Assembly: GCF_964204865.1 (NCBI RefSeq)
Contig: NC_135254.1
Coordinates: 1,927,001-1,991,000, forward strand
From: Styela clava
Taxonomy: Eukaryota > Chordata > Ascidiacea > Stolidobranchia > Styelidae
Direction of reading: 5' to 3'
Length of the DNA stretch: 64,000 bases
Under the pieces are notes generated by a model. The model was not told the DNA's origin and made no database searches. It worked only from the letters and a program-made list of their open reading frames with translations. Shown in pieces: positions 5,161-56,595 of this stretch. The position numbers and the translations under genes are program-made. Each line of letters starts with the position of its first letter. Position 1 is the first letter of the stretch.

Positions 5161-5205
5161 TGAAAAAAATCGTTAAAAAATGAGATATTTTTTATTACTC
5201 AAGAG

Positions 5206-19736: not shown

Positions 19737-19958
19737 TTTATTATCATGTTTGGTTGTATACAGAAATCACAAGGAGACAGCTATGAATTTTATTTTCTGA
19801 GCAAAAAGTTCCAATAGACAAGGCGACTAATTCAAAGCATGGGTTATACGGTTAATAATAGTAAAGGAATAATATAAGTAAGTAATAAAAAGTAAGAACT
19901 CTTTGTCGTTTATATCATTCAGTCCGTCAACGAAGTTCTGTCAGGTTTTGAGCTGGTT

Positions 19959-22522: not shown

Positions 22523-22925
22523 TATTGTACGACATTAAGTTCACCCAGATTTCAAACCAATCACTGAAAACAGGTCGGCAGGCGCTTACAGAATCAACGA
22601 GTCCGCTATATGCGACTGGCCGTAGCAAGTGAACAGGCAGTGATGTTATCCGTGCTGTAAGTAAAAAAGGAAACATAAAAACACCCGCATGACGCAGCAT
22701 CCAAACTGCATTCACCTATTTTATTTGTGCAGTTGAAAGCAGTTTTTATTCCCGTATGGTGTTTAGTTAGACGTCACTTCCTGTGGTATACATAAAACAA
22801 ACTAAAGAACAGAATATTCTTGTTGCACCCTATTACCCTGTGCGTTTACTATATTCTGTTGTACGAAAATACACTGTGGTATATCTACATTCTGTATATA
22901 AAATGGCATTCATTGAACATCTTCA
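22523..22925 (+). promoter_or_regulatory. Promoter-like module M, copy 3
   Basis: The core at 22770-22797 has GACGTCACTTCCTGTGG followed by a TATACATAAAA TATA variant, about 690 bp from the lectin copy 2 ATG. The outer part holds a minus-strand frame with RPVAYSGLVDS and CRPVFSDWFEIW, also open in copy 1 but broken in other copies. Confidence 0.42.
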
Positions 22926-22969
22926 AAAATTTAAAAAAAAACGTTTTTTTTTTTGCTTGAGAAACCCGT

Positions 22970-27032: not shown

Positions 27033-27040
27033 GGTTATAC

Positions 27041-27534
27041 CAGGGGTGGGCGACATACGGCTCGCGGGCCGCGTACGGCCCGCGACGCGATTTTGTCCGG
27101 CCCGCTGACTGTATCCAGCCACACTCTGTAATGTGATCCGACGCATCATTCCTAAACATTGCCAATCTCTCTACTCTCACCGCACTGTCAGTGCGAGCTG
27201 GTGAAATAAACAATTGCCTTTGTGAACAAACAATTGCGTTAGCACACTTGTTAAACAAACAATATAAGGTCAAAGCAGAGAGCGTTGTAAACATTCTTCA
27301 CTACTGTTATTAGTTATATTTATATTTAGATTCCAAATTTAAATAGATTTTAGAAATCAGATTTCACATTAAGTTTCATTAACCATAGAATACCCCAAGA
27401 AACGTGAAGTTGACTGAGAGTGTTGAGCATTTAATAAAGATTGGATACCGAAGTATTTTTTGTAATAATCCGGCCCGCCGAGTACTTCATTTTTCCACAT
27501 CTGGCCCGCCAACTAGAGAAGTTGCCCACCTCTG
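27041..27534. mobile_element. hAT MITE in the 3' UTR of lectin copy 3 (494 bp)
   Basis: Starts CAGGGGTGGGCGACATA and ends GTTGCCCACCTCTG. The flanking duplication is GGTTATAC (27033-27040) against GGTTAAAC (27535-27542), 7 of 8. Lectin copies 1 and 2 show the intact site GGGTTATACGGTTAATAA. Confidence 0.9.
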
Positions 27535-27647
27535 GGTTAAACGGTTAATAATAGTAAAAGAATAATATAAGTAATAAAAAGTGAGAACTCTTTGTCGTTT
27601 ATATCATTCAGTCCGTCAACGAATTTCTGTCAGGTTTTGAGCTGGTT

Positions 27648-29544
27648 TTATATTTCACAGATGACACCGTGGAATGACGAAGATGGTGGATAATTGACCA
27701 TTCCCTGAGATGCATACTCTGGATCCATATCGACCAAAACAGGAACATTTGTTCTCGATACAGCGGATATCGGATAATCAGGATACCACACTTCAGTTGC
27801 TATAGTAATTGGTCCTCCACTTGATAGCAGAAGTTGATTGTTCTGTAACAATTAAATGTACGGCTTCAAAGTCTGTCTGCAACTGACATATTGGTAGTCA
27901 TCATAGAAAAATCATATTGCGTTTTTCTAAATATCCAATCCATTGATAAACCATGAGGCATCGTTAACCTGCCCATTATTTAGTAATTTTATTGAAGACA
28001 AACTTTGAGCCAACCTTTGACCCGATGAAGTTTACAAAAATAAGTCAAACTGAGATTGTGATTTATTAACTGACCTTATACTCCATCCCAGTCCAGATAG
28101 AAATCCATTCCGCAGGTATCAGTAAGCGAAGATGAGGGAGCAGCCACTTGTAATGCGCGAGGTCGTAAATGTTCGCTGGTTTTCCGTTATTCATTGATTT
28201 GCAGATTGATTGAGCGTCATTGAAAGCGACATTCTGTGTAACATACACAAATGCTTTGTAGCATTTGGAATCGTATTTGAAGTCACATTCAACTGAAAAC
28301 AACATTATTGTTGTCATTGAATATTTTATAATAAAATTTCAGAAAATATTTTAACGATCTGGAATTAAGATTTCGTCGCTTTGCTTATTCAATAAATCTT
28401 CCTTTTAAAATAGAAATTTTAGAAATACTGAAATCTAATCTTTTTTGGATGGCGAAAGTCGATGAGACAACAGAAGTCTGTTTCAGATGTTATAATAACT
28501 ATCAATTTTAGACACATGGTTGGTGGAGGGTGAATCACCCAGTGACAATTCAGGCTTCAATACTTAAAGTTTGGGTAAATTAAAACTGATGCTTTGACGG
28601 GTGTAGCATATTTCATAGTCATATTATAAATAAACAACATTTGCATTAACAAATATAATTACTTTCAGCTTTTTTCTTTTCATCAAGACTCTTCTGGATC
28701 AATCTGGCGATTTCTGTAAATAAAAAAAACTATTTTATTTGTGTGTAGAGTATGGCATTTTAAATCAGTTTATCGTTCACAGTTTTTTTTTCTTTGACGA
28801 CCTTGTTTAACTTTTACACCACTGTATACTTCGACTATCTTACACAACGAGATTATTTTTGGAACATTGCGTACGTATTTATGACTCAAAATTCTGTCAT
28901 ACGTTCACGGTCACGTAAGTATTTTCAAACATAATATATATCATGAAGTAGGGCGAACTCACCGGATCCATCGTCTTTCTGTGAAATAAATAAAAAATGC
29001 AGTTGATTAGTGAAGTGAATATAACACGAAAGGTATATTAGATTATAATAGTTATATTAGAAAGTTATATTAGTTGCGTGAGATGCAGAAGTCTGATTTA
29101 AAATTGGCCAGGCAATTCAGAAAGCCCTTCCAAAAATAGCAGTTCTGGGAGTATCAATGGCTGCTTTCTTTAATCTTTACTTGGAGACAAACTACGTAAA
29201 CACCTGATAGAAATAGCAACAAAAATTTACCTTGCAGTCTCCAACTTGAACGAGTTTCCCATTCACGATCTTGGAAGCGCAGAATCCAGCTGTCAAAATA
29301 AAGCGTGATATTTTTTGGTTCAATTTTACGACATCATGTGCCAAAATTATAATTGTTGTTACACAATCAATGTGATACATTTTGCAAATGATTTAAAAAG
29401 CTCTTATATTTTACAATTATTGATACCATACGACGGATAAGTTATTTAGTAATTTTATTTGACACAAATCTTACCCGGAACTTTTAGCTTCGCACGCAAG
29501 CCACAGATGAGAGAGATGAACAAAATAAAGCTGACGAAGTCCAT
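27648..29544 (-). CDS. Secreted C-type lectin domain protein, copy 3 (six exons, intact)
   Basis: Exons are 29475-29544, 29231-29289, 28963-28978, 28663-28713, 28075-28292 and 27648-27842, totalling 609 nt (202 residues). Exon 5 is 6 nt shorter than in copies 1 and 4, which keeps the frame. Layout is signal peptide (MDFVSFILF), two-cysteine exon 2, Lys/Glu-rich neck, then CTLD with the hairpin Cys pair, SIC helix, WTGM and final ICEI. It is the most diverged copy in the ligand region: YPDYPISAV replaces YPGYPKSDA, and the following Trp is Arg. Different ligand specificity or relaxed constraint are both possible. The 3' UTR is interrupted by a 494-bp hAT element at 27041-27534, between the stop codon and the AATAAA shared with its paralogues (26928-26933, minus). 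Confidence 0.83.
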
Positions 29545-29986
29545 GTTTGCTTCTAGAAAGGTTTGATGACGCAACTAAAAACTTAGGTATAAAGTAAATA
29601 TCTGTAAAAATATCCGATGGTCTTATATGTTGCTCATCTTTTGGGCTCTGGCTAGAGCTCTTGGTTAGTTTCAGGAGGATCTATTTTTGAGACATTTTTC
29701 GACTATTCCGATCTTTTTAGGATACAAATTTGAAGTTGATATGCAACATTCATGAAAAACATGATATATTAAATAATGCAGATAAATTGAAGATAAATAA
29801 AAGTTTCCATCCAGCTGTGCCTGTTCTGAGTTACTGAGTCACTGGTACGTACACATAGACAGATAACAGCTAAATTAGAATAAACACCGGCATGGCGTAA
29901 TCTTCGACAATTATATATTTTTGGGTATTCATTATATAGTTTACAATACATACGCAAAGCAGATATGCAACATCTATCAATCATTG

Positions 29987-30420
29987 TTGTACGACATCAA
30001 GTTCACACATATTCCAAACCACTCATTGAAAACAGATCGGCAGGCGCTTGTAGAATCAACGAGTCCGTTATATACGACTGGCTATAGCAAGTAATCAGGC
30101 AGCGATTTTATCTGTGCTGTATCTAAAAAATGAAACATAAAGACATCTGCATAACGCAGCATACAAACTTAATTTACTTTTTATATTTGTGCAGTTGAAA
30201 GCAGTTTATATTCGTGTGTGATGTTTTGTTTGACGTCACTTCCTGTGGTATATATATAAAGCAAACTAATGAACAGAATATTTTTGTTGCACCCTATTAC
30301 ACTGTGCGTTTATTATGTTCTGTTCTACTTCAATACATTGTGGTATATCTATATACTGTTTATAAAATAGCATTCATTGAACATATTCGATATATAATAA
30401 GGCATTCATTGAAAATCTTC
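29987..30420 (+). promoter_or_regulatory. Promoter-like module M, copy 5
   Basis: The core at 30231-30262 has a perfect TGACGTCA, CTTCCTG, TGTGGT and TATATATATAAA, about 690 bp from the lectin copy 3 ATG. Confidence 0.45.
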
Positions 30421-35430: not shown

Positions 35431-36578
35431 GTTCTCATTCCCCCACCCCATATCGAAGTGAGCAGGCTGGGAAACTACGCATTTGCGGAAATCTCACCTC
35501 AAAAATAACTAGATAAGAATAAGCTACAAAAACATATAATAAAAATAACAGAAAGCACAACATCTCTCTGCAATCTCTAAACTTCTAAACAATAAAAAAA
35601 TGTAAAAAAGATCAAATCTTACTTTTTGTTTTTAATTGGCTTCACGCCCTTTCAAAAAAAATGTTTGCGATCTCTTGTGCGGCGCGTCCCACCGTTTGAG
35701 AACCACTGTTATAAAGAAACTGCATGGAATGACTCAGAATCGACATCAACTGACGGCAGTGGAATTTAACTCAGCGGTTTACTCGGATGACTCGTAAAAT
35801 GACCTGACTCGCGACGGGCAGTTCAGGAACTTTTACACCTAACAGTGGTTTCCAGCTGTTCAAATTATGCTGAGTCTAGCTTTACAAGCTTTGATAAATT
35901 TTGCCGATTAACGTTTTGCGCCTAGCATTGTGACCTCTCTCCAATTGCTCTGAGACGGGCCCCGGTTGGGAATCGCTGATTCAGAAACTAGAGGCATAAG
36001 TGTGCTTTCTAGCTGTTCAAATAGTGCTGAGTCATATTCTACAAGCTTTTGTAGAATTTTGCTGAGTAACTTTTATTTGAACCTTATAAAGAATGATTAT
36101 GCCAAGTCATATTTATGAGTCTCCTAGCACAGTTGAATTTCATTTGCCTAATGTGGGCAAAGCAAAGCACTTAATTATAAACTACTACTGAACTAACTTT
36201 GTTTCAGAGATTCTCTCCCTAATGTGCCTGCCCTAACCCAAGATATGGTAGGCGTGGTCTTTTTTTCACGCATGAGTATTATTCCATTTTACGGTTCCTT
36301 TTCTAATGGGTTCGCATAAATTGACAAAATAATAAAAAATCACAAATTATCGAATCAATATTTATTATCTTGTTCGGTTATATACAGAAATCACTTGGAG
36401 CAACTTATGAATTTTATTTTCTGAGCAAAAAGTTTCAATAAGAAAGGAGACCAGTTCAAGGTATGGCTTATACGATTAACAATAGTAAAGAAATAATATA
36501 AGTAATAAAAAGTGAGAACTCTTTGTCGTTTATATCATTCAGTCCGTCAACGAAGTTCTGTCAGGTTTTGAGCTGGTT

Positions 36579-38878
36579 TTATATTTCACAGATGATACCG
36601 TGGAGTGAATAGGATGGTTGCTCATTGAACATTCCCTGACGTGAAAACTCTGGATCTTTATTAACATCAACACCAACATTTGTCCACGATGCATCGGATT
36701 TCGGATAACCAGGATACCACACTTCAGTTGCTATAGAGGTTGGTTCTCCACTTGACAGCAAAAGCTGATTGTTCTGTAACAATTAAATGAAGGCTTTAAA
36801 ATCTGTTGCTTGAAATGTTAATGCAACTGACATATTAGATGAAGAATGAAAATATTTGCTTTCCGTGATGAGTTTTATAGTAAAGGTAGTCATCATAGAC
36901 GAAGTCTTGTAAGTTATGTGTAGGAACTACATGAAAATGAGTGAAAACCAGAAAATACTGGAAAAATCACAAATTCTGAAATATTCGGCAAATACCACAA
37001 TATCAATTACACAGTTCATCTATGACGTCACAATATAATTGAAGTTACAATGATATTGGGTTTTTCTAATTATTCAATTCATTAAAAAATCATAAGGCAT
37101 CGTTAACCTGCTTATTATTTGGTAATTTTATTGAAAACTGCTTTGAGCCAACCTTGGACCAGGTGAAGTTTACGAAAATGAGTCAAACTCTGCTAAAATT
37201 GTGATCTATTAAACTGACCTTATACTGCATCCCAGTCCAGATGGCTTTATATGTCGAAGAAGCAGGAATCAGTGAACGTAAGTAAGTGCGAAGTGACTGG
37301 TAATGCGCGAGGTCGTAAATGTTCGCGAGTTTCCCGTTGTTCATTGATTTGCAGATTGGTTGGGCATCATTGAAGGTGACATTCCGTGTATCATACACGA
37401 CTATTCGGAAGCATTTCGTCTTATACGTGACGTCACATTTAACTAAAAACAACATTATTGTTGTCATTCAATTTTTTATATTAAAATTTTAGAATATTTT
37501 AACGATCTGGGATTTAAATTTTGTCGGATTGCTTCATTTCAAAATAGAAATTTTGGAAATACTGTAATCTACTAATTTTGGAGATGGGAAATATGATAAG
37601 ACGAAAACTAAATAAAACGACAGAACAAATTTGTTTCAAATATCATAATAGCTATCAAGTTTAGATACATGGTTGGTGGGCTTAACAGAAATCGTAACAG
37701 ACTAGGGGTTGTGTTGATCACCCAGTAGCAACTCAGGGCCCAATACTTAAAATCTTCATAAAATGAAATACTAATGCTTTGAGGGGTGTGGCATATTTTA
37801 TAGTCAAATTATAAATCAGAAAACACACATATAAATTACTTTCAGCTTTTTTCTTTTCATCAAGACTCTTCTGGATCAATTTGAGGATATCTGTAAATAA
37901 ATGACATATTTCATTTGAGTGTAGATTAATGCATTTAAGTTAGTTTCGATTATTATATCGTCCACAATTATTTTTTCATCGACGACTTGTTTAAATTTTT
38001 ACCCACTGTATAATTTAACTATCTTACACACCACGAATATTTTTAGACCATTGCGTAATTACGACTATATCATGAAGTAGGACGAACTCACCGGATCCAT
38101 CGTCTATCTGTGAAATAAATAAAAAATACAGATGATTAGTAAAGTGAATATAACACGTAAGTTAGGCTATTTTATATTAGTTGCGTGAGATGCAGAAGTC
38201 GGATTAAAAATTGGGGGCTCCCGAAATATGCGAACCAAGATGGCTGACATCGGAATGTAATATGTGTACTAGGTTAGGGTTAGGCCATAATTTTAGGTAT
38301 AAATACTACGGGAGGCTCTTGGCTAGTCTTCGAACTAATAATAGGACTAAAATAAGGAAAATTGGAAAAAAATTATGGCCTAACCTGTTACCTATGTTAC
38401 GTTCCGATGTCCGCCATCTTGGTTCGCATACTTCGGGAGCACCAAAAATTGTGTTGGGAATTAAGAAAAAAAAAGCTTCGAGTCCTTTCAAAAGTAGTCA
38501 ATCTGAAAGGTCTAAGCCTTCCTTGGAGACAAAGCGTGAAAAAGCTGATAAAAAACACTTGATTTTACCTCGCAATCTCCAACCTGGACAAGTTTCCCCT
38601 TCACGATCTGGGAACGGCAGATTCCAGCTGTCAAAATTAAACGTGAAGTTCAATATAACAACATCATGCGCCAAAAATTATAGATGTTGCTACACTCGTT
38701 GAATGTGATATCTTTTGCAAATGATTCAGAAAGCTCTTATATTTTAGAATTCATGGTGCCAGAAGACGGATAAATTTATCTAGTAATTGTATCCGAAACA
38801 AATCTTACCCGGTAATTTTACTTCAGCCAGCAAGCCACAGATGAGGGAGAGAAAGAAAAGTATTTCGACGACGTCCAT
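36579..38878 (-). CDS. Secreted C-type lectin domain protein, copy 4 (six exons, intact)
   Basis: Exons are 38809-38878, 38569-38627, 38092-38107, 37840-37890, 37219-37442 and 36579-36773, 615 nt in all (204 residues). Signal peptide MDVVEILFF, exon 2 with two Cys, basic helical neck, then CTLD with KCDV/KCFR hairpin cysteines, SICK helix, WTGM, GYPKSD and final ICEI. Only four CTLD cysteines are present, as in copy 1. The second intron carries a 230-bp MITE (38214-38443) absent from the paralogues. Unlike copies 1-3, no CRE/ETS/TATA module is seen upstream; the sequence above 38880 is unrelated. AATAAA lies at 36361-36366 (minus). Confidence 0.84.
38214..38443. mobile_element. 230-bp inverted-repeat MITE in intron 2 of lectin copy 4
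   Basis: Left arm GGGGCTCCCGAAATATGCGA and right arm CATACTTCGGGAGCACC form long inverted repeats. The 8-bp target duplication AAAAATTG is perfect (38206-38213 and 38444-38451). The same family occurs at 59203-59432 and 62673-62901. The other lectin copies lack it. Confidence 0.88.
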
Positions 38879-40459
38879 ATTTGCTTCTCGAAAGGTTTGG
38901 TGACGCAACCAAATGCTTATCTATGAAGTAAATATCTGTGATATTCAAGGTTATTGTAGGTTTAGTAGCGTTACAATTGGCTGTATTGGGTGGCATTTTT
39001 TGTAATATTTGTAGCAAGTTTCGTGGGTAAAGGTAACGCAGAGGCGTTGTACTATATAAGATGGAGCGCCACTCCATAAACTTTAAGTCGAAGCAGCTCG
39101 GAGGTTTTTGATTTTGAATAGCGAAGCTCGAAAATTTAGAATTTTAGATGACCCTGCTTGACTTACGTATGACCCAACGAACTAGCTTGGAAAGTATCAA
39201 TCGTACGTTGCCGCCATGACTATTAAACACCACTCTTACAATCTTTCATTGAAGCCTTTTCCTGCACAACTACCACAATTACACATTCCTGTTTCTATTA
39301 ATTCATAACTACTGAGGAATTCATACCTACTGAGAAATTCATAACCTTTTTTGCATATTTTACCCCTTCATCAAACAGGATTACAAAATTTACCCCTAAA
39401 ACATCATTAATTAAAAGTTATCAAGTAAAGTATAAAGGGCCCTAACTGTAGACGCGAAGCCTTTTTTTACTCTCTTTTTTAATCCATATTCGCTTCTGTA
39501 TTGAAAAAAGGACCGGTTTTTACTTAATCATGCTAAGTGCTGTTTTAGTTGGACAGGTTTCATGATACTATTTGAAAAGATTTCCATGCACAGAAGATAC
39601 GTATACGTAAACTCAAAATCTAAATATTCGTCCTGATCAGGGGCGCAGCCAAGATTTTAAAGAAAGGGGGGAGGGGATCGAAATCTAAAAATCTCATTCA
39701 CTGTTGAAACAGTGGTCGCGATTACGCGCTCGTTAAAAGAACCGTCTTTCCTCCAATCCCTGAGAATTTCTGTGCTATTTTTAGTAGCATTTTGTTTCAA
39801 CAACTTTTAGTGTGCTATTTTGGGGACAACATTTAATGGAATGGTTAAAATAACAAAGAACACCACTTAATTGAAGGTGTTGGTTTTCGGTTTCGTTTGA
39901 AATATAAGACTACTGTTAATAATACGATAACACTGATTTATCGCAACATAACGAGCCGTGGTTTATGTATGTTCATAATCATTTTTTACAATAACCAAAT
40001 TTACCCCCAAGAACGAAGAAATTTACCCCCAGGGGTAAATTTACCCCAGGTTAAGAAGTGCTGATCTAGACTTAATTTACTAAACACTAAGATACCGTTG
40101 GAAAATCGTCTATGAAAATTTACGCGGTTCCCCATTTGCATGTGCTTATTTTCCTCAAGTGTTAATCCAACAATGAGATGGACAAATGAATGACTTAGAA
40201 TGCTTCAAAGCCTAGTAAATTATTAAAAAATTTGATTGCCGTACACGAGTTATTACTTCGTATGAAATTGTGTATTGTATGACGTAACAATGGTTGAATT
40301 TCATTATTATATCTTGGTTATTTCAGAATTTTCACATGCATTTTGTGGTATATAGGCAGTAATCAGAGCGTAAAGGAGTTATTGTTATTTCAATATGTCT
40401 CGATTACGTGAATTCAAAAGTTGGTTTATTTTACGTCGTATGACGTATAATATCCAAGC
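38879..40459. other. No gene seen; old repeat pieces
   Basis: The stretch contains several TTTACCCC-type repeats (near 39360, 40000 and 40040) that look like ends of a decayed transposon. No protein frame is recognised. Confidence 0.45.
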
Positions 40460-43400
40460 AGCATGCCCTTCCGCTCAATAGTAGTCAAGTTTCAATATTT
40501 AATAGAAAAAAGGGCTAACTGAAGTATTTCTCGCAACTTGGACAAAGCTTTTCGAATTTTAGAATTTAGAGTATTCTCACAGCGAAAATGGATTCATTTG
40601 GTAAAATCACATATGTCAAAAAATGGTAAAGATTACCCTTTACAAATCCAAGCAGCCAAAAAGAGGGTAAAATTACCATTTTCAAATCCTAATACAAAGC
40701 CATTCCGCCCAAGAGGCACGAGATTCAACTATTCAATAATTAAGAGGGTTACCTTAAGTTTTTCATACAACTCGAAACAATCCCTGCAAAATTTTAGAAA
40801 TTCGAGTATTGTCACAGACAAAATGCCCTTATGTCAAAATACTTATAGCGAAAAAATCTGATTTAGCCAAATTTGAAAGCCTAGCAGCACACTCTTCCGC
40901 CCAAGAGGCATCCGATTTGATTATTTATTATTAAAGATGTTTATCTGAAGTTTTTCACACAGTTCGAACCTAAGCCTTGTTTTTATTAGAATCTAGGGTA
41001 TTATCGAAGCGAAAATGGCCTTATTTGGAAAAATTACTTAGAGCGAAAAAAGCTGATTCAATCAAATTTCAAAGCCTAGCAGCACAACCTTCCGCCCAAG
41101 AGGCATCCGATTTGATTATTTATTATTAAAGGTGTTTATCTGAAGTTTTTCACACAGTTCGAACCTAAGCCTTGTTTTTATTAGAATCTAGGGTATTATC
41201 GAAGCGAAAATGGCCTTATTTGGAAAAATTACTTATAGCGAAAAAAGCTGATTTAGCCAAATTTCAAAGCCTAGCAGCACACCCTTCCGCCCAAGAGGCA
41301 TCCGATTTGATTATTTATTATTAAAGATGTTTATCTGAAGTTTTTCACACAACTCGAAGCTAAGCCTTATTTTTATTAGAATCTAGGGTATTATCGAAGC
41401 GAAAATGGCCCATTTTTGAAAAATTACTTATAGCGGAAAAAGCTGATTCAATCAAATTTCAAAGCCTAGCAGCACACCCTTCCGCCCAAGAGGCATCCGA
41501 TTTGATTATTTATTATTAAAGAGCTTTATCTGAAGTTTTTCACACAACTCGAACCTAAGCCTTGTTTTTATTAGAATCTAGGGTATTATCGAAGCGAAAA
41601 TTGCCCATTTTTGAAAAATTACTTATAGCGAAAAAAGCTGATTCAATCAAATTTCAAAGCCTAGCAGCACACCCTTCCGCCCAAGAGGCATCCGATTTGA
41701 TTATTTATTATTAAAGAGGTTTATCTGAAGTTTTTCACACAACTCGAACCTAAGCCTTGTTTTTATTAGAATCTAGGGTATTATCGAAGCGAAAATTGCC
41801 CATTTTTGAAAAATTACGTATAGCGAAAAAAGCTGATTCAATCAAATTTCAAAGCCTAGCAGCACACCCTTCCGCCCAAGAGGCATCCGATTTGATTATT
41901 TATTATTAAAGATGTTGATCTGAAGTTTTTTACACAGTTTGAACCTAAGCCTTGTTTTTATTAGAATCTAGGGTATTATCGAAGCGAAAATGGCCTTATT
42001 TGGAAAAATTACTTATAGCGAAAAAAGCTGATTTAGCCAAATTTCAAAGCCTAGCAGCACACCCTTCCGCCCAAGAGGCATCCGATTTGATTATTTATTA
42101 TTAAAGAGGTTTATCTGAAGTTTTTCACACAACTCGAACCTAAGCCTTGTTTTTATTAGAATCTAGGGTATTATCGAAGCGAAAATGTCCCATTTTGAAA
42201 AAATTACGTATAGCGAAAAAAGCTGATTTAACCAAATTTCAAAGCCTAGCAGCACACCCTTCCGCCCAAGAGGCATCCGATTTGATTGTTTATTATTAAA
42301 GAGGTTTATCTGAAGTTTTTCACACAACTCGAAGCTAAGCCTTGTTTTTATTAGAATCTAGGGTATTATCGAAGCGAAAATGGCCCATTTTTGAAAAATT
42401 ACTTATAGCGGAAAAAGCTGATTCAATCAAATTTCAAAGCCTAGCAGCACACCCTTCCGCCCAAGAGGCATCCGATTTGATTATTTATTATCAAAGAGGT
42501 TTATCTGAAGTTTTTCACACAACTCGAACCTAAGCCTTGTTTTTATTAGAATCTAGGGTATTATCGAAGCGAAAATGGCCCATTTTTGAAAAATTACTTA
42601 TAGCGAAAAAAGCTGATTCAATCAAATTTCAAAGCCTAGCAGCACACCCTTCCGCCCAAGAGGCATACGTTTTGATTATTTATTATTAAAGAGGTTTATC
42701 TGAAGTTTTTCACACAACACGAACCTAAGCCTTGTTTTTATTAGAATCTAGGGTATTATCGAAGCGAAAATGGCCTTATTTGGAAAAATTACTTATAGCG
42801 AAAAAAGCTGATTTAACCAAATTTCAAAGCCTAGCAGCACACCCTTCCGCCCAAGAGGCATCCGATTTGATTATTCATTATTAAAGAGGTTTATCTGAAG
42901 TTTTTCACACAACTCGAACCTAAGCCTTGTTTTTATTAGAATCTAGGGTATTCTTGAAGTGAAAATGGCCTTATTTGGAAAAATTTCTTATAGCGAAAAA
43001 TGCTTATTTAGCCCAATTTCAAAGCCTAGCAGCACACCCTTCCGCCCAAGAGGCATCCGATTTGATTATTTATTATTAACGAGGTTTATCTGAAGTTTTT
43101 TACACATCTTGAACCTAAGCCTTGTTTTTATTAGAATCTAGGGTATTATCGAAGCGAAAATGGCCCATTTTTGAAAAATTACGTATAGCGAAAAAAGCTG
43201 ATTAACCAAATTTCAAAGCCTAGCAGCACACCCTTCCGCCCAAGAGGCATACGATTTGATTATTCATTATTAAAGAGGTTTATCTGAAGTTTTTCACACA
43301 ACACGAACCTAAGCCTTGTTTTTATTAGAATCTAGGGTATTATCGAAGCGAAAATGGCCTTATTTGGAAAAATTACTTATAGCGAAAAAAGCTGATTTAA

Positions 43401-44785
43401 CCAAATTTCAAAGCCTAGCAGCACACCCTTCCGCCCAAGAGGCATCCGATTTGATTATTCATTATTAAAGAGGTTTATCTGAAGTTTTTCACACAACTCG
43501 AACCTAAGCCTTGTTTTTATTAGAATCTAGGGTATTCTTGAAGTGAAAATGGCCTTATTTGGAAAAATTTCTTATAGCGAAAAATGCTTATTTAGCCCAA
43601 TTTCAAAGCCTAGCAGCACACCCTTCCGCCCAAGAGGCATCCGATTTGATTATTTATTATTAACGAGGTTCATCTGAAGTTTTTCACACATCTTGAACCT
43701 AAGCCTTGTTTTTATTAGAATCTAGGGTATTATCGAAGCGAAAATGGCCCATTTTTGAAAAATTACGTATAGCGAAAAAAGCTGATTAACCAAATTTCAA
43801 AGCCTAGCAGCACACCCTTCCGCCCAAGAGGCATACGATTTGATTATTCATTATTAAAGAGGTTTATCTGAAGTTTTTCACACAACACGAACCTAAGCCT
43901 TGTTTTCATTAGAATCTAGGGTATTATCGAAGCGAAAATGGCCTTATTTGGAAAAATTACTTATAGCGAAAAAAGCTGATTTAACCAAATTTCAAAGCCT
44001 AGCAGCACACCCTTCCGCCCAAGAGGCATCCGATTTGATTATTCATTATTAAAGAGGTTTATCTGAAGTTTTTCACACAACTCGAACCTAAGCCTTGTTT
44101 TTATTAGAATCTAGGGTAGTCTTGAAGTGAAAATGGCCTTATTTGGAAAAATTTCTTATAGCGAAAAATGCTTATTTAGCCCAATTTCAAAGCCTAGCAG
44201 CACACCCTTCCGCCCAAGAGGCATCCGATTTGATTATTTATTATTAAAGAGGTTTATCTGAAGTTTTTCACACAACTCGAACCTAAGCCTTGTTTTTTTT
44301 AGAATCTAGGGTATTCTCGAAATAGTTATGAACTACTTACGCGACGAGGCCTATTAGTGAAAAATTACGTATAGCGAAAAAAGCTGATTTAGCCAAATTT
44401 CAAAGTCTAGCAGCACACCCTTCCGCCCAAGAGGCATTCGATTTGATTATTTCACTTTAAAGAGGTTTACCTGAAGTTTTTCACACAATCAAAACCTAAG
44501 CCTTTTTTATTTTAGAATCTAGGCCGATCTAGAGTATTCTAATAGCGAAAATCGCCTTATTTGGAAAAATTACTTATAGCGAAGAAAGCTAATTTAGTAA
44601 ATTTTCAAATCCTAGCAGCACATCCTTCCGCACAAGAGGCATTCGATTTGATTATTTCATGTTAAAGAGGTTTACCTGAAGTTTTTTACACAACTAGAAT
44701 CTAAGCCTTTTTTATTTTAGATTCTAAGGTATTCTCGAAACCTAAAAAGGACCTTAATCGGAAAAATTATTTATAGCAGAAAAGG
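40460..44785 (+). repeat. 195-bp satellite array, plus-orientation arm
   Basis: About 22 monomers of 195 bp; the phrase GCCTAGCAGCACACCCTTCC recurs at 41269, 41464, 41659 and 41854. Each monomer has GAGGCATCCGATTTGATTA, GGTATTATCGAAGCGAAAA and a TATAGCGAAAAAAGCTGAT segment. Edge monomers (40460-40880 and 44320-44785) are diverged. From about 42730 to 44230 a three-monomer unit repeats with a 584-bp period, marked by GGTATTCTTGAAGTGAAAAT at 42947 and 43531. No convincing coding frame. Confidence 0.95.
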
Positions 44786-44989
44786 GTAATTTTGAACTAT
44801 ATTTAGATGTATCGATATGTCGGTACCGGCAATATCGGAGGCATTCGTATAAATATCGGCTAAATGTAGCCCTTTATTTCCTATTTGATTCGTCTGATCC
44901 AAAACATGGTAAAAGATATGTTTAATTCGGGTATTCACTCCTCAGAATTTAATTCTAATGTGATTTTGATCTTACGTAATTTTTGGTAC
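44786..44989. other. Spacer between the opposed satellite arms
   Basis: Roughly 200 bases of non-satellite sequence, with GTCGGTACCGGCAATATCGG at 44819-44838. It is not repeated elsewhere in the window as far as I can see. It ends abruptly at canonical inverted monomers. Confidence 0.7.
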
Positions 44990-47900
44990 ATCAGCTTTTT
45001 TCGCTATAAGTAATTTTTCCAAATAAGGCCATTTTCGCTTCGATAATACCCTAGATTCTAATAAAAACAAGGCTTAGGTTCGAACTGTGTGAAAAACTTC
45101 AGATAAACACCTTTAATAATAAATAATCAAATCGGATGCCTCTTGGGCGGAAGGGTGTGCTGCTAGGCTTTGAAATTTGATTGAATCAGCTTTTTTCGCT
45201 ATAAGTAATTTTTCCAAATAAGGCCATTTTCGCTTCGATAATATCCTAGATTCTAATAAAAACAAGGCTTAGGTTCGAACTGTGTGAAAAACTTCAGATA
45301 AACATCTTTAATAGTAAATAATCAAATCGGATGCCTCTTGGGCGGAAGGGTGTGCTGCTAGGCTTTGAAATTTGATTGAATCAGCTTTTTTCGCTATAAG
45401 TAATTTTTCGAAAATGGGCCATTTTCGCTTCGATAATACCCTAGATTCTAATAAAAACAAGGCTTAGGTTCAAGTTGTGTGAAAAACTTCAGATAAACCT
45501 CTTTAATAATAAATAATCAAATCGGATGCCTCTTGGGCGGAAGGGTGTGCTGCTAGGCTTTGAAATTTGATTGAATCAGCTTTTTTCGCTATAAGTAATT
45601 TTTCAAAAATGGGCCATTTTCGCTTCGATAATATTCTAGATTCTAATAAAAATAAGGCTTAGCTTCGAGTTGTGTGAAAAACTTCAGATAAACATCTTTA
45701 ATAATAAATAATCAAATCGGATGCCTCTTGGGCGGAAGGGTGTGCTGCTAGGCTTTGAAATTTGGCTAAATCAGCTTTTTTCGCTATAAGTAATTTTTCC
45801 AAATAAGGCCATTTTCGCTTCGATAATACCCTAGATTCTAATAAAAACAAGGCTTAGGTTCGAACTGTGTGAAAAACGTCAGATAAACATCTTTAATAAT
45901 AAATAATCAAATCGGATGCCTCTTGGGCGGAAGAGTGTGCTGCTAGGCTTTCAAATTTGGCTAAATCAGATTTTTTCGCTATACGTAATTTTTCAAAAAT
46001 GGGCCATTTTCGCTTCGATAATACCCTAGATTCTAATAAAAACAAGGCTTAGGTTCGAGTTGTGTGAAAAACTTCAGATAAACATCTTTAATAATAAATA
46101 ATCAAATCGGATGCCTCTTGGGCGGAAGGGTGTGCTGCTAGGCTTTGAAATTAGGCTAAATCAGCTTTTTTGGCTATAAGTAATTTTTCCAAATAAGGCC
46201 ATTTTCGCTTCGATAATACCCTAGATTCTAATAAAAACAAGGCTTAGGTTCGAACTGTGTGAAAAACTTCAGATGAACATCTTTAATAATAAATAATCAA
46301 ATCGGATGCCTCTTGGGCGGAAGGGTGTGCTGCTCGGCTTTGAAATTTGGCTAAATCAGCTTTTTTCGCTATACGTAATTTTTCTAAAATGGGCCATTTT
46401 CGCTTCGATAATACCCTAGATTCTAATAAAAACAAGGCTTAGGTTCGAGTTGTGTGAAAAACTTCAGATAAACATCTTTAATAATAAATAATCAAATCGG
46501 ATGCCTCTTGGGCGGAAGGGTGTGCTGCTAGGCTTTGAAATTTGATTGAATCAGCTTTTTTCGCTATACGTAATTTTTCAAAAATGGGCCATTTTCGCTT
46601 CGATAATACCCTAGATTCTAATAAAAACAAGGCTTAGGTTCGAGTTGTGTGAAAAACTTCAGATAAACCTCTTTAATAATAAACAATCAAATCGGATGCC
46701 TCTTGGGCGGAAGGGTGTGCTGCTAGGCTTTGAAATTTGGTTAAATCAGCTTTTTTCGCTATAAGTAATTTTTCCAAATAAGGCCATTTTCGCTTCGATA
46801 ATACCCTAGATTCTAATAAAAACAAGGCTTAGGTTCGAACTGTGTGAAAAACTTCAGATCAACATCTTTAATAATAAATAATCAAATCGGATGCCTCTTG
46901 GGCGGAAGGGTGTGCTGCTAGGCTTTGAAATTTGGCTAAATCAGCTTTTTTCGCTATAAGTAATTTTTCCAAATAAGGCCATTTTCGCTTCGATAATACC
47001 CTAGATTCTAATAAAAACAAGGCTTAGGTTCGAACTGTGTGAAAAACGTCAGATAAACATCTTTAATAATAAATAATCAAATCGGATGCCTCTTGGGCGG
47101 AAGAGTGTGCTGCTAGGCTTTCAAATTTGGCTAAATCAGATTTTTTCGCTATACGTAATTTTTCAAAAATGGGCCATTTTCGCTTCGATAATACCCTAGA
47201 TTCTAATAAAAACAAGGCTTAGGTTCGAGTTGTGTGAAAAACTTCAGATAAACATCTTTAATAATAAATAATCAAATCGGATGCCTCTTGGGCGGAAGGG
47301 TGTGCTGCTAGGCTTTGAAATTAGGCTAAATCAGCTTTTTTGGCTATAAGTAATTTTTCCAAATAAGGCCATTTTCGCTTCGATAATACCCTAGATTCTA
47401 ATAAAAACAAGGCTTAGGTTCGAACTGTGTGAAAAACTTCAGATGAACATCTTTAATAATAAATAATCAAATCGGATGCCTCTTGGGCGGAAGGGTGTGC
47501 TGCTCGGCTTTGAAATTTGGCTAAATCAGCTTTTTTCGCTATACGTAATTTTTCTAAAATGGGCCATTTTCGCTTCGATAATACCCTAGATTCTAATAAA
47601 AACAAGGCTTAGGTTCGAGTTGTGTGAAAAACTTCAGATAAACATCTTTAATAATAAATAATCAAATCGGATGCCTCTTGGGCGGAAGGGTGTGCTGCTA
47701 GGCTTTGAAATTTGATTGAATCAGCTTTTTTCGCTATACGTAATTTTTCAAAAATGGGCCATTTTCGCTTCGATAATACCCTAGATTCTAATAAAAACAA
47801 GGCTTAGGTTCGAGTTGTGTGAAAAACTTCAGATAAACCTCTTTAATAATAAACAATCAAATCGGATGCCTCTTGGGCGGAAGGGTGTGCTGCTAGGCTT

Positions 47901-50140
47901 TGAAATTTGGTTAAATCAGCTTTTTTCGCTATAAGTAATTTTTCCAAATAAGGCCATTTTCGCTTCGATAATACCCTAGATTCTAATAAAAACAAGGCTT
48001 AGGTTCGAACTGTGTGAAAAACTTCAGATCAACATCTTTAATAATAAATAATCAAATCGGATGCCTCTTGGGCGGAAGGGTGTGCTGCTAGGCTTTGAAA
48101 TTTGATTGAATCAGCTTTTTTCGCTATACGTAATTTTTTCAAAATGGGCCATTTTCGCTTCGATAATACCCTAGATTCTAATAAAAACAAGGCTTAGGTT
48201 CGAACTGTGTGAAAAACTTCAGATCAACATCTTCAATAATAAATAATCAAATCGGATGCCTCTTGGGCGGAAGGGTGTGCTGCTAGGCTTTGAAATTTGA
48301 TTGAATCAGCTTTTTTCACTATACGTAATTTTTTCAAAATGGGCCATTTTCGCTTCGATAATACCCTAGATTCTAATAAAAACAAGGCTTAGGTTCGGGT
48401 TGTGTGAAAAACTTCAGATAAACCTCTTCAATAATAAACAATCAAATCGGATGCCTCTTGGGCGGAAGGGTGTGCTGCTAGGCTTTGAAATTTGGTTAAA
48501 TCAGCTTTTTTCGCTATACGTAATTTTTCCAAATAAGGCCATTTTCGCTTCGATAATACCCTAGATTCTAATAAAAACAAGGCTTAGGTTCGAACTGTGT
48601 GAAAAATCTTCAGATCAACATCTTTAATAATAAATAATCAAATCGGATGCCTCTTGGGCGGAAGGGTGTGCTGCTAGGCTTTGAAATTTGATTGAATCAG
48701 CTTTTTTCGCTATACGTAATTTTTTCAAAATGGGCCATTTTCGCTTCGATAATACCCTAGATTCTAATAAAAACAAGGCTTAGGTTCGAACTGTGTGAAA
48801 AACTTCAGATCAACATCTTTAATAATAAATAATCAAATCGGATGCCTCTTGGGCGGAAGGGTGTGCTGCTAGGCTTTGAAATTTGATTGAATCAGCTTTT
48901 TTCGCTATACGTAATTTTTTCAAAATGGGCCATTTTCGCTTCGATAATACCCTAGATTCTAATAAAAACAAGGCTTAGGTTCGAGTTGTGTGAAAAACTT
49001 CAGATAAGCCTCTTTAATAATAAACAATCAAATCGGATGCCTCTTGGGCGGAAGGGTGTGCTGCTAGGCTTTGAAATTTGGTTGAATCAGCTTTTTTCGC
49101 TATACGTAATTTTTCCAAAATGGGCCATTTTCGCTTCGATAATACCCTAGATTCTAATAAAAACAAGGCTTAGGTTCGAGTTGTGTGAAAAACTTCAGAT
49201 AAACCTCTTTAATAATAAATAATCAAATCGGATGCCTCTTGGGCGGAAGGATGTGCTGCTAGGCTTTGAAATTTGGCTAAATCAGCTTTTTTGACTATAA
49301 GTAAATTTTCCAAATAAGGCCATTTTCGCTTCGATAATACCCTAGATTCTAATAAAAACAAGGCTTAGGTTCGAGTTGAGTAAAAAACTTCAGATAAACC
49401 TCTTTAATAATAAATAATCAAATCGGATGCCTCTTGGGCGGAAGGGTGTGCTGCTAGGCTTTGAAATTTGGTTAAATCAGATTTTTTCGCTATACGTAAT
49501 TTTTCCAAAATGGGCCATTTTCGCTTCGATAATACCCTAGATTCTAATAAAAACAAGGCTTAGGTTCGAGTTGTGTGAAAAACTTCAGATAAACCTCTTT
49601 AATAATAAATAATCAAATCGGATGCCTCTTGGGCGGAAGGGTGTGCTGCTAGGCTTTGAAATTTGGCTAAATCAGCTTTTTTCGCAATAAGTAATTTTTC
49701 CAAATAAGGCCATTTTCGCTTCGATAATACCCTAAATTCTAATAAAAACAAGGCTTAGGTTCAAGATGTGTGAAAAACTTCAGATAAACATCTTTAATAA
49801 TAAATAATCAAATCGGATGCCTCTTGGGCGGAAGGGCGTGCTGCTAGGCTTTGAAATTTGGCTAAATCAGCTTTTTTCGCTATACGCAATTTTTCAAAAA
49901 TAGGCCATTTTCGCTTCGATAATACCCTAGATTCTAATAAAAACAAGACTTAGGTTCGAGTTGTGTGAATAACTTCAGATAAACCTCTTTAATAATAAAT
50001 AATCAAATCGGATGCCTCTTGGGCGGAAGGATGTGCTGCTAGGCTTTGAAATTTGACTAAATCAGCTTTTTTAGCTATAGGTAATTTTCCGAATAAGGAC
50101 GTTTTTTAGCTATGAGAATACCCTAGGTTTTAAAATTTGG
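44990..50140 (-). repeat. 195-bp satellite array, inverted arm
   Basis: About 26 monomers of the same family as 40460-44785 in reverse complement. Two blocks of six monomers, about 45690-46859 and 46860-48029, match with a 1170-bp period through several private variants (GAAAAACGTC at 45871 and 47041; TGCTCGGCTT at 46331 and 47501). The last monomer (50040-50140) is diverged, as at a natural array edge; the first is not. Confidence 0.95.
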
Positions 50141-50984
50141 AAGGCTTATGTTCTCCTATGGGGGTACGCTGACTCCCCATTTTTTAAACTCGTCATCCAT
50201 CTCCTTAGTTTTGTTTACTGTACAACTTGACTTGATTTAGGAATTGCTCATCTGCTATTTCGAAGGAAGTTAAATAAAATTCATGTCATTTTTATTGTTT
50301 TTTCATTGTTTATCATGTAATTTATTGTTATTTTTTGCTTTGTAGATGTTAATTTATCGTAAATGATTAGTATCTTCCCATTGATCGTATTCTAAATTCG
50401 TTTTTCTACATTTTTTCGGATGTAGATTATGATACTCCTTCATTTCTGCTGCCAATATTCACCTTTCCGCTTCGCCGCACACAAAGGTCAAATTGCTACT
50501 AGCTTCACAGTGGTCTTTGACCTTCTATAAAAATTTCACAGCCCTTATTACTAGAATTGCTAGATTTGTGCCTGTACCGTAATTAACAGCTTTAAGTTAA
50601 CCATTCAGCCATCAGGGAGGGAAAATTAAGCGGTTAGAACAACATACAATAATTTTAGTGCCTGTTTTGGCAAGGAAGGTCAGTCCTAGGCAAGATAAAA
50701 ATAAATTTCGGCTCAAGCATTTGAGTATTTGAAAGCAGTTCGCGGTGATTTCATTTCAGCATTTTGGTACCGGTACCGTATTTGTTTCAGATGCATGGAC
50801 TTGACGGTGGAGGACGCCGTAACCGACCAGCATGAACGACTCTACCACCCGTTTTGTGACATTTTCTGTATTTAATTGGTAGAATGGCTGAATGGTAAAT
50901 GAATATTTTATGATCTAACCAAACTTGGTTCATCTAGGAGACAAATTAAAACTGTTGTGGCCTTAAAACCAAATTCTAATAATT
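50141..50984. other. Between satellite and minisatellite; no gene seen
   Basis: AT-rich unique sequence. Bases 50787-50836 are a SINE fragment (ATGCATGGACTTGACGGTGG and GCCGTAACCGACCAGC). Confidence 0.5.
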
Positions 50985-51180
50985 GTTTTGCATTCCATTT
51001 CCTTCATTTGCCTCTGCATTATCTAGTCCGTATGGTGTCAAGCACTTTTCATATTCACTTTGCATTTTATTTTTTGTAATTTTCCTCTGCCTTATCTCAG
51101 TATCTAGTACGTGCGGCTGTGAGAGATTTTAATATTCGTTTTGCATTTTTTTTCTTCATTTGCCTCTGCTTCATTTAGTA

Positions 51181-52149
51181 CAGTGTTCCCTAAGTGTGGT
51201 CCACGAATCTTTTGGGGTCTGTGAAGCACTTTCGGGGGGACCACTGATGACTGATGAGTATAATAATTTCCCACTTTCTGGTTTCGAACACGCTGCCTCG
51301 TTGTGATGTCACAAAGCTGTGGCTTATGATATCACAGAGAGAGTTTAATTGCTGCCATTACAGCATTACGAGTTAACTAACTACATGTAGATGTAGCTGA
51401 CACTGCCTTTTTGCATGTTCGTTGGCATACCGTGTTTCATTGAAAATACGACTGGGTCCTATTTTTATTCGAAAAATAACATTGAGCTTATTTTTGGGGG
51501 ATGTCTTTCATTTTCATTTATCAAAAACTAAATTACGAAGTAGAGAATTACCGAGAATATGAAAAACGATATCCATTTACCTCTAAATAACATTTTACCT
51601 CTCTCATGCGTTTCAAATTAATCATTTAAAACGTGTAGGAGAGATTTTTTGCTATCAACCAGTTAAAAAACATTTGCGTTATTGACTAGGTCTAATTTTA
51701 AAGGGAGGACTTATATTAAAATTTATTTTCAAAATTCAGGGCTGGTATTATTTCCGGGGAAACACGGTAGGAGGGATTCAAAGTAGACAGTTTATAACGT
51801 TATGCTAGTCCGCTTCTGAATGCTGTTTTACGCCTATATATTGAAAATAGCGTTAGTAGAGTGTAGCAAGAGAGGCACTATGTTTTAGTTTTTAGCTGTC
51901 AAATTTAGCCTTCAACATACATTAACGTTAGGGCTGACTATATTTTGACGTTTTCAACCCTGTAATATTAATTTCAAGATGAAATTGGGAAACAATGAAT
52001 CTTGAATCGTGATAAACGCAGAGGAGAGATGTTTTTCACTATACTGTATAGCGCATTGATTTTATGATCTTTTAATGTTGCACGGATATCATTGAAAAAA
52101 TTGCAAGGGTCCGTCATGGATTTTTTTTTTAAAAGTTTAGCAACCACTG
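51181..52149. mobile_element. hAT element in the minisatellite (969 bp)
   Basis: Starts CAGTGTTCCCTAAGTGTGG and ends AGTTTAGCAACCACTG. Flanks are ATTTAGTA (51173-51180) and ATCTAGTT (52150-52157), a diverged 8-bp duplication within the repeat unit. No transposase frame seen. Confidence 0.75.
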
Positions 52150-52209
52150 ATCTAGTTCGTATGGCTGTATGAGATTTTCATAATCCGTTTGCCTATGCTT
52201 CATCTAGTG

Positions 52210-52753: not shown

Positions 52754-53860
52754 ATCTGGTGTATGTGAGAGATTTTCATAATCACTTTGCATTTTATTTT
52801 TTGTAATTTTCTTCTGTTTATCTAGTACGTGCGTCTGTGAACAATTTTAATAATTACTTTGCGTTTCATTACCTTCATTTGCCTCTGCTCCATCTAGTAT
52901 GTGCGTATATAAGAGATTTTCATAATCATTTTGCATTTTATTTTCTTCATTTGCCTCTGCTTCATCTAGTATGTGCGTATATAAGAGATTTTCATAATCA
53001 CTTTGCATTTTATTTTCTTCATTTGACTCTGTTTCATCTAGTACGTGCGTATGTAAGAGATTTTCATAATCACTTTGCATTTTATTTCCTTCCTTTGACT
53101 CTGTTTCATCTAGTATGTGCGTATATAAGAGATTTTCATAATCACTTTGCATTTCATTTCCTTCATTTGACTCTATTTCATCTAGTACGTGCGTATATAA
53201 GAGATTTCCATATTCACTTTGCATTTTATTTCCTTCATTTGACTCTATTTCATCTAGTACGTGCGTATATAAGAGATTTTCATAATCACTTTGCATTTCA
53301 TTTCCTTCATTTGACTCTATTTCATCTAGTACGTGCGTATATAAGAGATTTTCATAATCATTTTGCATTTTATTTTCTTCATTTGACTCTGTTTCATCTA
53401 GTACGTGCGTATATAAGAGATTTTCATAATCATTTTGCATTTTATTTTCTTCATTTGACTCTGTTTCATCTAGTACGTGTGTATATAAGAGATTTTCATA
53501 ATCATTTTGCATTTCATTTCCTTCATTTGACTTTGTTTCATCTAGTAAGTGCGTATATGAGAGATTTTCATAATCATTTCGCGTTTTATTTTTTGTAATT
53601 TTTCTCTGCTTCATCTAGTGCGTGCATACGTGAGCTTATTTCATAACCGCTTTGCATTTTATCATTTTTTTTCTTCTGCTGATGCCGGTTTATATTTTGT
53701 AAAATACACAAACAAATGGCTCGATGGTGTGTCACGTCGTGCTAAGCGCTGGAATACGCTCGTCTGTGTGCTTTATTTAAAAAATTGAAAATACGGTGTA
53801 CATAATAAATAAATAGGTAAACAATAAAGAAATATAAATATCCCAAAAAAGCGGGCGGAT

Positions 53861-54182: not shown

Positions 54183-54836
54183 CAAATAATCGCACTGAAA
54201 AGTTTGATAGTGATAGGATTTTGAGACATTTCTCATCGTTATTAATAATAAAGTAAAACATAACAATAATGGTTCTTAATAAAAATAATTGATGTGGCTA
54301 TACCATCCGAAAGAAACAACTCTAAAAAATATTTGAAAAACTCTCAAAATACAAAGATCTAGAGATCGAGATACAAAAGATGTGGGGACTCAAAACTTCA
54401 ACAATACCGGTAGTGGTGGGGGCGGTTGGACTTATCGGAAGAGAATTTGAAAAATATGTCTAATATATTTCAGGAAAAATTAATGCAGAACAGCTCCAAA
54501 AAAACGTTCTTCTTGGAACAGCTCACATCTTACGTAAAGTACTTTCTATCAATTGATGACCTCAGGAACTTGAAAAGTTCCCGGTCGCCAGAAGGTTAAA
54601 ATATTAACATAAAAAAGAAACTAAGAAATAATTATTTTCCGCAACCACCTGCTGTTATAAGTGCATACAACATGTCACGATTTGTAGGGTCTCCTGAAAT
54701 GAGGGAACCTGTTGTTAGTGAGTTCTAGACAAAAGCGAACCCGTTCTAAAAATTTTGCCCACTACTTATAAGCTTCATGTTTTGTATTTCTGAACAGACT
54801 TTATACCTTAAAATTTTAAATATTTAAAATATAAAA
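54183..54836 (+). other. Upstream region of IFT43
   Basis: No other gene is seen. The last 60 bases before the ATG are AT-rich with no clear TATA box at a usual spacing. A CTGAACAG near 54790 could serve as a 3' splice acceptor for a leader, which is speculative. Confidence 0.4.
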
Positions 54837-56595
54837 ATGGATTTTGATTTCGGCATCGGCAAAAAGAGTCAAGCAAAAACTGGGCGTAGAGCGAAGTCGA
54901 CTAAATCTAATGCATCACTGAACACAAACGAAAAAGAAAGTGTAGTTCCGAAAGAAATCGCTCCAAAATCTCAACTCAAAGAAATTGGGGCTGATTCCCC
55001 TCCCCGGCCGTCAAGACGAATGGCGGGCTGGGGGGATGCCGATAATAAACGTGACCGTAATAAGGGGGTGGAGGATTCTAGATTGTTAGTAACAGGGGAT
55101 TCCCCTAGAACACGAATTCACTCCTCAGACGAAGAAGGCGATGATCTCCAAGTAATACCTGATTTGGACGATGTTCAGGTAACCCAGTTTTTAATGGTGT
55201 GGTTTTAATATTAGGGAAGTGATTTTCAACTTTCATGGAACCCCTTGATAAGCGATTGGGGCCCATGACATCTTGATATGCTATTGGGGCTTATCACGGT
55301 GCCCCTGTTAACAATTACGATATTGTATTTTTTGTATAAATCCCCCACCAATAATACGAAAATGTGAGATTTGAGAAAAACACCTTATCCATGTTTTCAA
55401 ATAACAAATTAGTAATTATCGAGTTGGTGTTAGGAATAATTCAAATTTTCTGCACAATCTGCACTCCTAGCCCCGACTGGATAATTAGTAAGTTTTTATT
55501 TGAGCATTGGCCGGTTGTTTGTTACTCATAGATCTTGAGATCGGTTAGTATGTTGATAGGTATTTGTGTGTTTGTCTGTTAGACACTTTGTATGTTACGC
55601 GATATCTCTCGAAAGCAGAGTTGAATCTCCTCCATATTTTGCATGTGCATTCGTCATATCTCGGACTAGAAGCCTATTGATTTTGGATGAATTCTGCCGT
55701 GTAATTAGCGAGTTATTAATTAATTAGTGGGACACGTGGTGTCACTATAGAGTCATGAATTGAAACTGCAGTTTCGATCGATAAGTCTTCGGTCTCCGAC
55801 CGATATTCTCGTTTTGACTTTGTACAAAATATCCTTATTACTTAAAAACACTTATAAATGTATGAAAGTTTAAATATTTAAAAACGTGGGGTTATCACAA
55901 ATGTTGAAACGTCAGGGGTTCAATGATGACCCCTTCGCTGCCCCATTTCTCTCATTCTTTTAATTCATTGCATGATGTTGCTCAATGCAATATCACCGAC
56001 ATAGCAAATTTTTGAAATGAAACAACCCCAGCGAATTTTTGAAATGAAACAACCCCCCAGACAATGAATGAAAAATGAAATCATGTCTACTACTGAATAC
56101 AGACACACATTTTCAGGGCATAATAATATCTATGACATCATAAACTTTCACCTCTCTCTAGATGAAATCCTGGGTATGCCACTGAAAGCAGCCACCAACT
56201 TTTTTATGACATGGCATATTATTATGACATCACAATATTTCTGATTTTTACCCCCCATTCATCCACCTCAAAAAAACTTTGGGTTTAGCCAGCCACTAAC
56301 ATTTTCATAATTTCCACAGAATGAAGATATCGCACAACAAATGGCTGCCCCACCTTCAGTTGCGATGAATCAAGTCGCTACGTATCGTGAACTTGACAGT
56401 GACCTTCAACGACATTCGACCTTCACACTTCTAGACAATGAAATCGATCTCAAACTTCTTGCGAAACACATGACAACTGGCATCGACGAACCAGACGAGA
56501 CATGGGATTGGGATATATTATTCGCACAAATATCAGGAGCCTTAAGACAGAAAAATAATTCCTCAACAACAGCGACTAATGATAAACTGATTTAA
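54837..56595 (+). CDS. IFT43: Intraflagellar transport protein 43 (IFT-A subunit), two coding exons
   Basis: Exon 1 is 54837-55178 (114 codons) and exon 2 is 56320-56595 (91 codons plus stop), joined in phase 0 across a GT-AG intron. The product is 205 residues; human IFT43 is of similar length. Residues 1-60 are basic and disordered, followed by a PPRPSRRMAGWGD segment and an acidic stretch ending in IPDLDDVQ. Exon 2 opens NEDIAQQMAAPPS, and its conserved core runs TYRELDSDL (135-143), NEIDLKLLAKHM (154-165) and DETWDWDILF (173-182), which is the signature I recognise. IFT43 is a small subunit of IFT complex A, which works in retrograde transport along the ciliary axoneme. The ATG follows an AT-rich leader. 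A poly(A) signal lies at 56660-56665. The 1.1-kb intron holds transposon-like sequence. Confidence 0.93.
55179..56319 (+). other. IFT43 intron with transposon-like sequence
   Basis: Begins GTAACC and ends TTTCCACAG. Bases 55215-55950 contain GTGATTTTCAACTTTCATGG and a GGGGTTCAATGATGACCCC end, resembling a decayed hAT-like insertion, with a short tandem copy (GCGAATTTTTGAAATGAAAC) near 56030. Confidence 0.6.

Follow-up and report, generated by a model that had tools for sequence, protein, structure and literature searches.

A single satellite locus with two opposed arrays of one 195-bp monomer in Styela clava

Results

Genes and repeats at the locus

The window, by which we mean the whole stretch of 64,000 nucleotides of Styela clava DNA that was analysed, contains no N, has 28-43% G+C per 2-kb stretch and a CpG observed/expected ratio of 0.98. 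In it lies a tandem repeat with a unit of 195 bp, which TRF reports as 20.1 copies on the plus strand at 40836-44783 (91% matches) and as 26.2 copies on the minus strand at 44982-50088 (94% matches). Searches by BLAST with one monomer and by nhmmer with an HMM of the family show that both arrays consist of one monomer of about 195 bp in opposed orientations, and they place the plus array at 40452-44804 and the minus array at 44982-50153, with a spacer of 177 bp (44805-44981) in between. Beyond the TRF call the plus array thereby gains 40452-40601 and 40676-40834 leftwards (about 70% identity) and extends to 44804 rightwards, and the right limit of the minus array moves to 50153. The parts of the two arms are as follows.

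40452-40835, plus strand: outer left edge of the array, with two degenerate monomers (about 70% identity; nhmmer E = 1.7e-18 and 5e-19)
40836-44148, plus strand: 17 homogeneous 195-bp monomers, p01-p17 (TRF, BLAST), with a 3-monomer block repeat in p10-p17
44149-44804, plus strand: the plus arm's decayed inner edge, with three divergent monomers, p18-p20, and one partial (about 83% to the consensus; small insertions)
44805-44981, no strand: spacer of 177 bp, unlike the monomer, the flanks and the rest of the window
44982-45016, minus strand: partial monomer (positions 1-36), the clean inner cut of the minus arm (BLAST, nhmmer), with a candidate breakpoint at 44981/44982
45017-50087, minus strand: 26 full monomers, m01-m26, with m01 closest to the spacer (TRF, BLAST)
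45691-48104, minus strand: tandem duplication of six monomers (1170 bp), 1244 bp exact
50088-50153, minus strand: degenerate partial monomer (positions 131-194), the decayed outer edge of the minus arm (nhmmer E = 1.5e-4; 72% to the consensus over 64 positions)

The plus arm, 4353 bp long, is thus made up of two degenerate, 17 homogeneous and three divergent monomers and one partial, and the minus arm, 5172 bp long, of 26 full monomers with a partial at either end. The best full monomers reach E = 8.9e-71 with the family HMM, which rules out chance as an explanation, and outside the masked array the 64-kb window has no further copy (best E = 4.7). The longest ungapped inverted arms measure 2378 nt, and the 25 longest of 193 inverted pairs are 93-95% complementary in many registers. 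None of the 88 stop-to-stop frames of at least 75 aa in the window lies inside 40862-50153, and one of 112 aa (40523-40861) spans the degenerate left edge; in the window there are no Rfam matches at gathering score and no tRNAs found by ARAGORN. One 27-base exact monomer pattern had no match in collections of viral and genome contigs from which the window's own genome was possibly left out.

Head-to-tail non-coding monomers with shared variants and blocks of local duplication are what is found here, and the locus is in that sense a satellite DNA array. The initial annotation had described such an array with a switch of orientation, about 22 plus and 26 minus monomers long and explained by no gene, and this is borne out by TRF, BLAST, nhmmer and the monomer tree below, as well as by the lack of frames of at least 75 aa in 40862-50153. 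It had also put the spacer at some 200 bp and the limits at 40460-50140; the opposed arrays and the spacer stand, at 177 bp and with limits of 40452-50153.

To the right of the array two frames match IFT43, a weak one at 54828-55205 (E = 0.14, below the cut-off) and another at 56311-56592 (E = 1.6e-23, 83.9 bits against a cut-off of 27). The former has its first ATG at 54837, which puts it 4.7 kb beyond the minus arm. To the left of the array are, among the matches listed, four diverged copies of a segment of several kb, at about 2090-5200, 19361-22960, 26165-30390 and 35630-38940, with pairwise matches of about 69-87% (45 of the 58 listed). Minus-strand frames that look alike by eye are present in copies of this segment (3109-3387, 28066-28338 and 37183-37467), and of the three the last alone has a match to Lectin_C, with a score slightly under the Pfam cut-off (20.2 against 22.6 bits, E = 0.0011).

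Kinship of the monomers

The mean identity is 94.0% within the plus arm (17 homogeneous monomers), 94.9% within the minus arm (26 monomers) and 94.2% between the arms, p18-p20 being excluded from these means. The excluded monomers are 83.1-83.9% identical to the consensus, against 95.9% for m01 on the other side of the spacer. In a maximum-likelihood tree of 48 monomers (41 of them different), with both degenerate ones included, the orientation changes 11 times, and at least 6 of these changes are forced by starred branches. With shuffled labels there were on average 16.1 to 16.2 changes, and 4 of 500 shuffles were as low as the 11 observed. Starred clades that unite plus and minus monomers include p01 with m05 and m11, p02 with m01 and m02, and p03 with m04. 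Orientation is therefore clustered in part, as is expected with local duplicates, yet the two arms do not form separate lineages. They share exact tracts, the longest of which is 242 bp (41145-41386 and 45877-45636). The families of monomers are mixed across the arms, and the two arms are one monomer pool.

Over the satellite 60 of the 195 columns are variable. The longest invariant run in the 43 homogeneous monomers (40836-44148 and 45017-50087) is 18 bp, columns 59-76 of the 195-column consensus. Such a run is hint at most of a putative protein-bound site, and as a conserved protein-binding box we rejected it, since 105 of 2000 shuffles equal it.

Duplications inside each arm

An excess of identity at a lag of three monomers is seen in both arms (95.75% in one and 95.72% in the other), and in the minus arm also at lag 6 (96.46%). 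In the latter, 45691-46934 is the same as 46861-48104, 1244 bp exact at a spacing of 1170, and within this match m05-m09 are identical to m11-m15. The longest exact repeat in p10-p17 of the plus arm is 405 bp at a spacing of 584, and 3-monomer blocks are present in both arms. An excess at lags 3 and 6 together with exact tandem blocks is the usual signature of unequal exchange.

Order of the monomers in the two arms

We aligned p01-p17 with m01-m26, one monomer against one, in the direction that an inverted copy would have, and compared the scores with those of shuffled orders. Over five settings the observed score was equalled or exceeded in 488, 843, 964, 1346 and 1169 of 2000 shuffles; in the opposite direction, used as a control, the numbers were 634, 639, 495, 815 and 986 of 2000. 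With the duplicates m11-m16 dropped, 789, 1224 and 681 of 2000 shuffles reached it in three settings. The best mirror register with at least six pairs averages 96.15% (six pairs). Nor was the closeness of p01-p05 to m01-m05 significant in a box test with m11-m15 dropped (375 of 5000 at a threshold of 98.4%, 1576 of 5000 at 97.9%). A mirror copy that has kept its monomer order is thus unsupported by the alignment against shuffled orders. The initial annotation had seen the array as repeated head-to-tail and then inverted into a large imperfect palindrome, and of this the opposed arms remain; as a mirror-image copy the structure does not hold, because the order is not detectably conserved.

Spacer and edges

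The spacer has no significant match to the monomer, the flanks or the rest of the window, and as a whole it is not palindromic. A dyad of 25 nt close to its left end was rejected as a real feature, since with a proper control 87 of 1000 shuffles equal it.

Divergent monomers mark three of the four array ends, i.e. the outer left, the inner plus and the outer right, and not the inner minus end. Where the homogeneous consensus has TATTATC, the monomer at 40452-40601, p18, p20 and the outer right partial at 50088-50153 have TATTCTC; the second degenerate monomer and p19 are exceptions that differ from this edge state. Judged from the monomers of the locus themselves, those at the edges are probably old and the edge-type states probably ancestral. 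The inner partial of the minus arm is 91.4% identical to the consensus over 35 positions (94.4% by BLAST), and that of the plus arm 65.9% over 41 positions (75.6% by BLAST). Since the inner end of the minus arm alone among the four is a clean cut in homogeneous monomers, 44981/44982 is the likeliest candidate for a rearrangement breakpoint, even if the cut rests on 35 bases and a deletion could have left it instead.

The inner ends of the two arms, 44764-44804 and 44982-45016, stop at nearly equal monomer positions (about 39 and 36), which may be due to chance or to a preferred break point.

Discussion

The most reasonable explanation to the locus, to which we give a probability of roughly 60%, is that a single small satellite locus got its two opposed arms by an inversion or a fold-back duplication in one array and was then reshuffled by unequal exchange. 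A head-to-tail array of about 195-bp monomers would have been amplified out of older monomers that persist at its edges. A break within the array would then have led to a part of it being inverted, or copied back by a fold-back switch of template, and later unequal crossing-over in each arm would have gained and lost blocks of three and six monomers, so that any mirror order became blurred. The identity across the arms, which is about the same as that within them, the cross-arm clades, the 242-bp tract, the excess at lag 3 and the pattern of the edges all speak for such a history. That no collinear mirror copy is detected counts against it, and so does the orientation, whose clustering on the tree exceeds that in 496 of the 500 shuffles. 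The clustering is expected from local duplicates, but separate arrays would give it too. By the order tests, what we see is not a recent fold-back copy, be it natural or an artefact, and it may be an old one that has been reshuffled. That an inversion took place within an array had also been suggested at the outset, and the shared monomer family and the cross-arm clades are consistent with it, although the inversion as such is something that we infer. The locus needs no function.

An unlikely alternative, if the most probable of those that we have weighed, is that two separate arrays of one dispersed family were juxtaposed in opposite directions, for instance when an excised circle was reinserted, and that no local inversion has occurred. 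The undetectable mirror order, the blocks that are specific for one arm (p10-p17 and m17-m21), the partly clustered orientation and a spacer that resembles neither monomer nor flanks would all fit with this. What speaks against it is the close kinship of the arms, which share several starred clades and exact tracts as long as 242 bp. As there is no other copy in the 64 kb, two arrays 177 bp apart would moreover be coincidental if the family were not a very common one.

It is still less probable that the locus is a foldback-type DNA transposon, or a derivative of one, with long terminal inverted repeats built of tandem repeats and the spacer as its middle domain. The model for this is Tetris of Drosophila virilis, which is described as having tandem repeats of about 220 bp (TIR-220) in inverted terminal repeats that flank a middle domain (PMC4079207). 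In that account the repeats are also found in satellite-like arrays of kb size, 39 of 69 contigs with the repeats are without the terminal domain, and copies outside complete elements are about 94% alike (PMC4079207), so missing ends at our locus leave such a descent conceivable. As in the described Tetris there are here AT-rich tandem repeats of about 200 bp in two opposed blocks, with a middle that has no protein-coding capacity (PMC4079207). Unlike Tetris as described, however, our locus shows neither a terminal nor an inner domain in inverted form, and we found no target-site duplication. The outer flanks of 2 kb have no inverted similarity (38452-40451 against the reverse complement of 50154-52153 scored 27, the shuffled mean being 26.8, and 98 of 200 shuffles were as good), and neither have the two spacer halves (equalled or exceeded in 197 of 200 shuffles), with shuffles that preserve base composition only. 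There is no direct word of 7 bases or more shared within 40 bp of 40452 and 50153, and no target-site duplication of 8-10 bp at these edges, although the edges are decayed and an old one could have been lost. The 64-kb window holds no second copy, and the arms of 4353 and 5172 bp exceed the Tetris ends, for which lengths of up to 1735 bp are given. With the terminal, target-site (40452/50153) and inner-domain tests all negative, we rejected the foldback transposon as a candidate.

Weakest of the alternatives is an artefact of assembly, in which the switch of orientation comes from a hairpin (fold-back) read or from array ends wrongly joined at the spacer: long homogeneous arrays are difficult to assemble and the 1244-bp exact match in the minus arm is possibly a miscount of copies, but a fold-back read would give nearly perfect mirror arms, whereas here the best register reaches only 96.15%, the arms are unequal (4353 and 5172 bp), divergent monomers stand on a single side of the spacer and the halves of the spacer are not inverted copies, so that a simple mirror-copy artefact appears unlikely and a mis-join at the spacer is possible.

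The locus can be compared with some described systems. Macro-dyad symmetries are described in the satellites of Tribolium madens, and similar tendencies in those of T. freemani and T. castaneum; the macro-dyads consist of opposed subarrays, predominantly two, of a few to tens of kb, the longest annotated being 75 and 26 kb (PMC13081366). In TmSat1 the unit on one side of the inversion point has degenerated and is 23.5% or 10.7% divergent, and the function of the macro-dyads is, according to the same source, unclear without experiments (PMC13081366). Our locus likewise has two opposite subarrays of one monomer family in one array at kb scale, and degenerate units on one side of the switch, p18-p20 being about 17% off the consensus. 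By analogy it matches this arrangement, the closest one described. The macro-dyads in that account, however, lie in multi-megabase, putatively (peri)centromeric regions and recur at conserved inversion sites, whereas ours is a single locus of 9.7 kb with a gene at 4.7 kb and an unrelated spacer of 177 bp. Another comparison is with the TCAST-like repeats of Tribolium castaneum, which are reported as dispersed in euchromatin near genes, preferentially as single repeats, with some families forming multimers with inverted repeats around unrelated sequence (PMC5844308). Our arrays are similar in being satellite-like, close to a gene and inverted around unrelated sequence, and differ from the single repeats of that report in being two and long (PMC5844308). 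In itself the locus is thus an ordinary and previously described kind of repeat arrangement. If the assembly is right, it is at the same time a compact single locus, in which the switch of orientation, a probable breakpoint and divergent edges can be read together beside a gene. That would make it a useful case for the question, raised by the work on Tribolium, of how opposed satellite arrays arise and go on exchanging monomers.

A pericentromeric or heterochromatic site, as was also proposed in the initial annotation, finds no support in the window. An IFT43 frame has its first ATG 4.7 kb away, and the core of the CENP-B box has no exact match in the window (0.16 expected by chance). Many centromeric satellites are without a CENP-B box, so that the latter result excludes nothing, and nor does the nearby frame.

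The initial annotation had also raised the possibility of a cruciform. The 645 nt around the spacer are predicted with DNA parameters to fold at -154.3 kcal/mol, against a mean of -56.0 (sd 3.6) in 20 shuffles. A single strand can thus be predicted to form a long hairpin, as with any two opposed arrays, and the prediction is silent on the living cell, a cruciform included. It is a far-fetched extension of this that transcription across the spacer would give a hairpin RNA of about 4 kb that is cut into abundant siRNAs of the satellite. If that were true, a satellite-built locus at the side of a gene would set the chromatin of the family it belongs to, and perhaps that of IFT43 and the lectin-like cluster nearby.

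Two further features of the window may be added. A minisatellite with a unit of 72 bp sits between the satellite array and IFT43, at 52761-53662 (12.5 copies, 89% matches), and has relatives at 50972-51186 and 52132-52192. It has an open frame on either strand, of 263 and 255 codons, and would give a putative repeat of 24 residues; its minus-strand frame scores 21.7 bits against Fibrinogen_BP, under the Pfam cut-off of 50. To the left of the array there are also remains of hAT-type transposases, among them a frame of 316 codons at 9762-10709 with a match to DUF4371 below the cut-off, and two matches to Dimer_Tnp_hAT, one at 844-1086 below the cut-off (E = 6.3e-4) and one at 18330-18821 above it (E = 1.1e-5).
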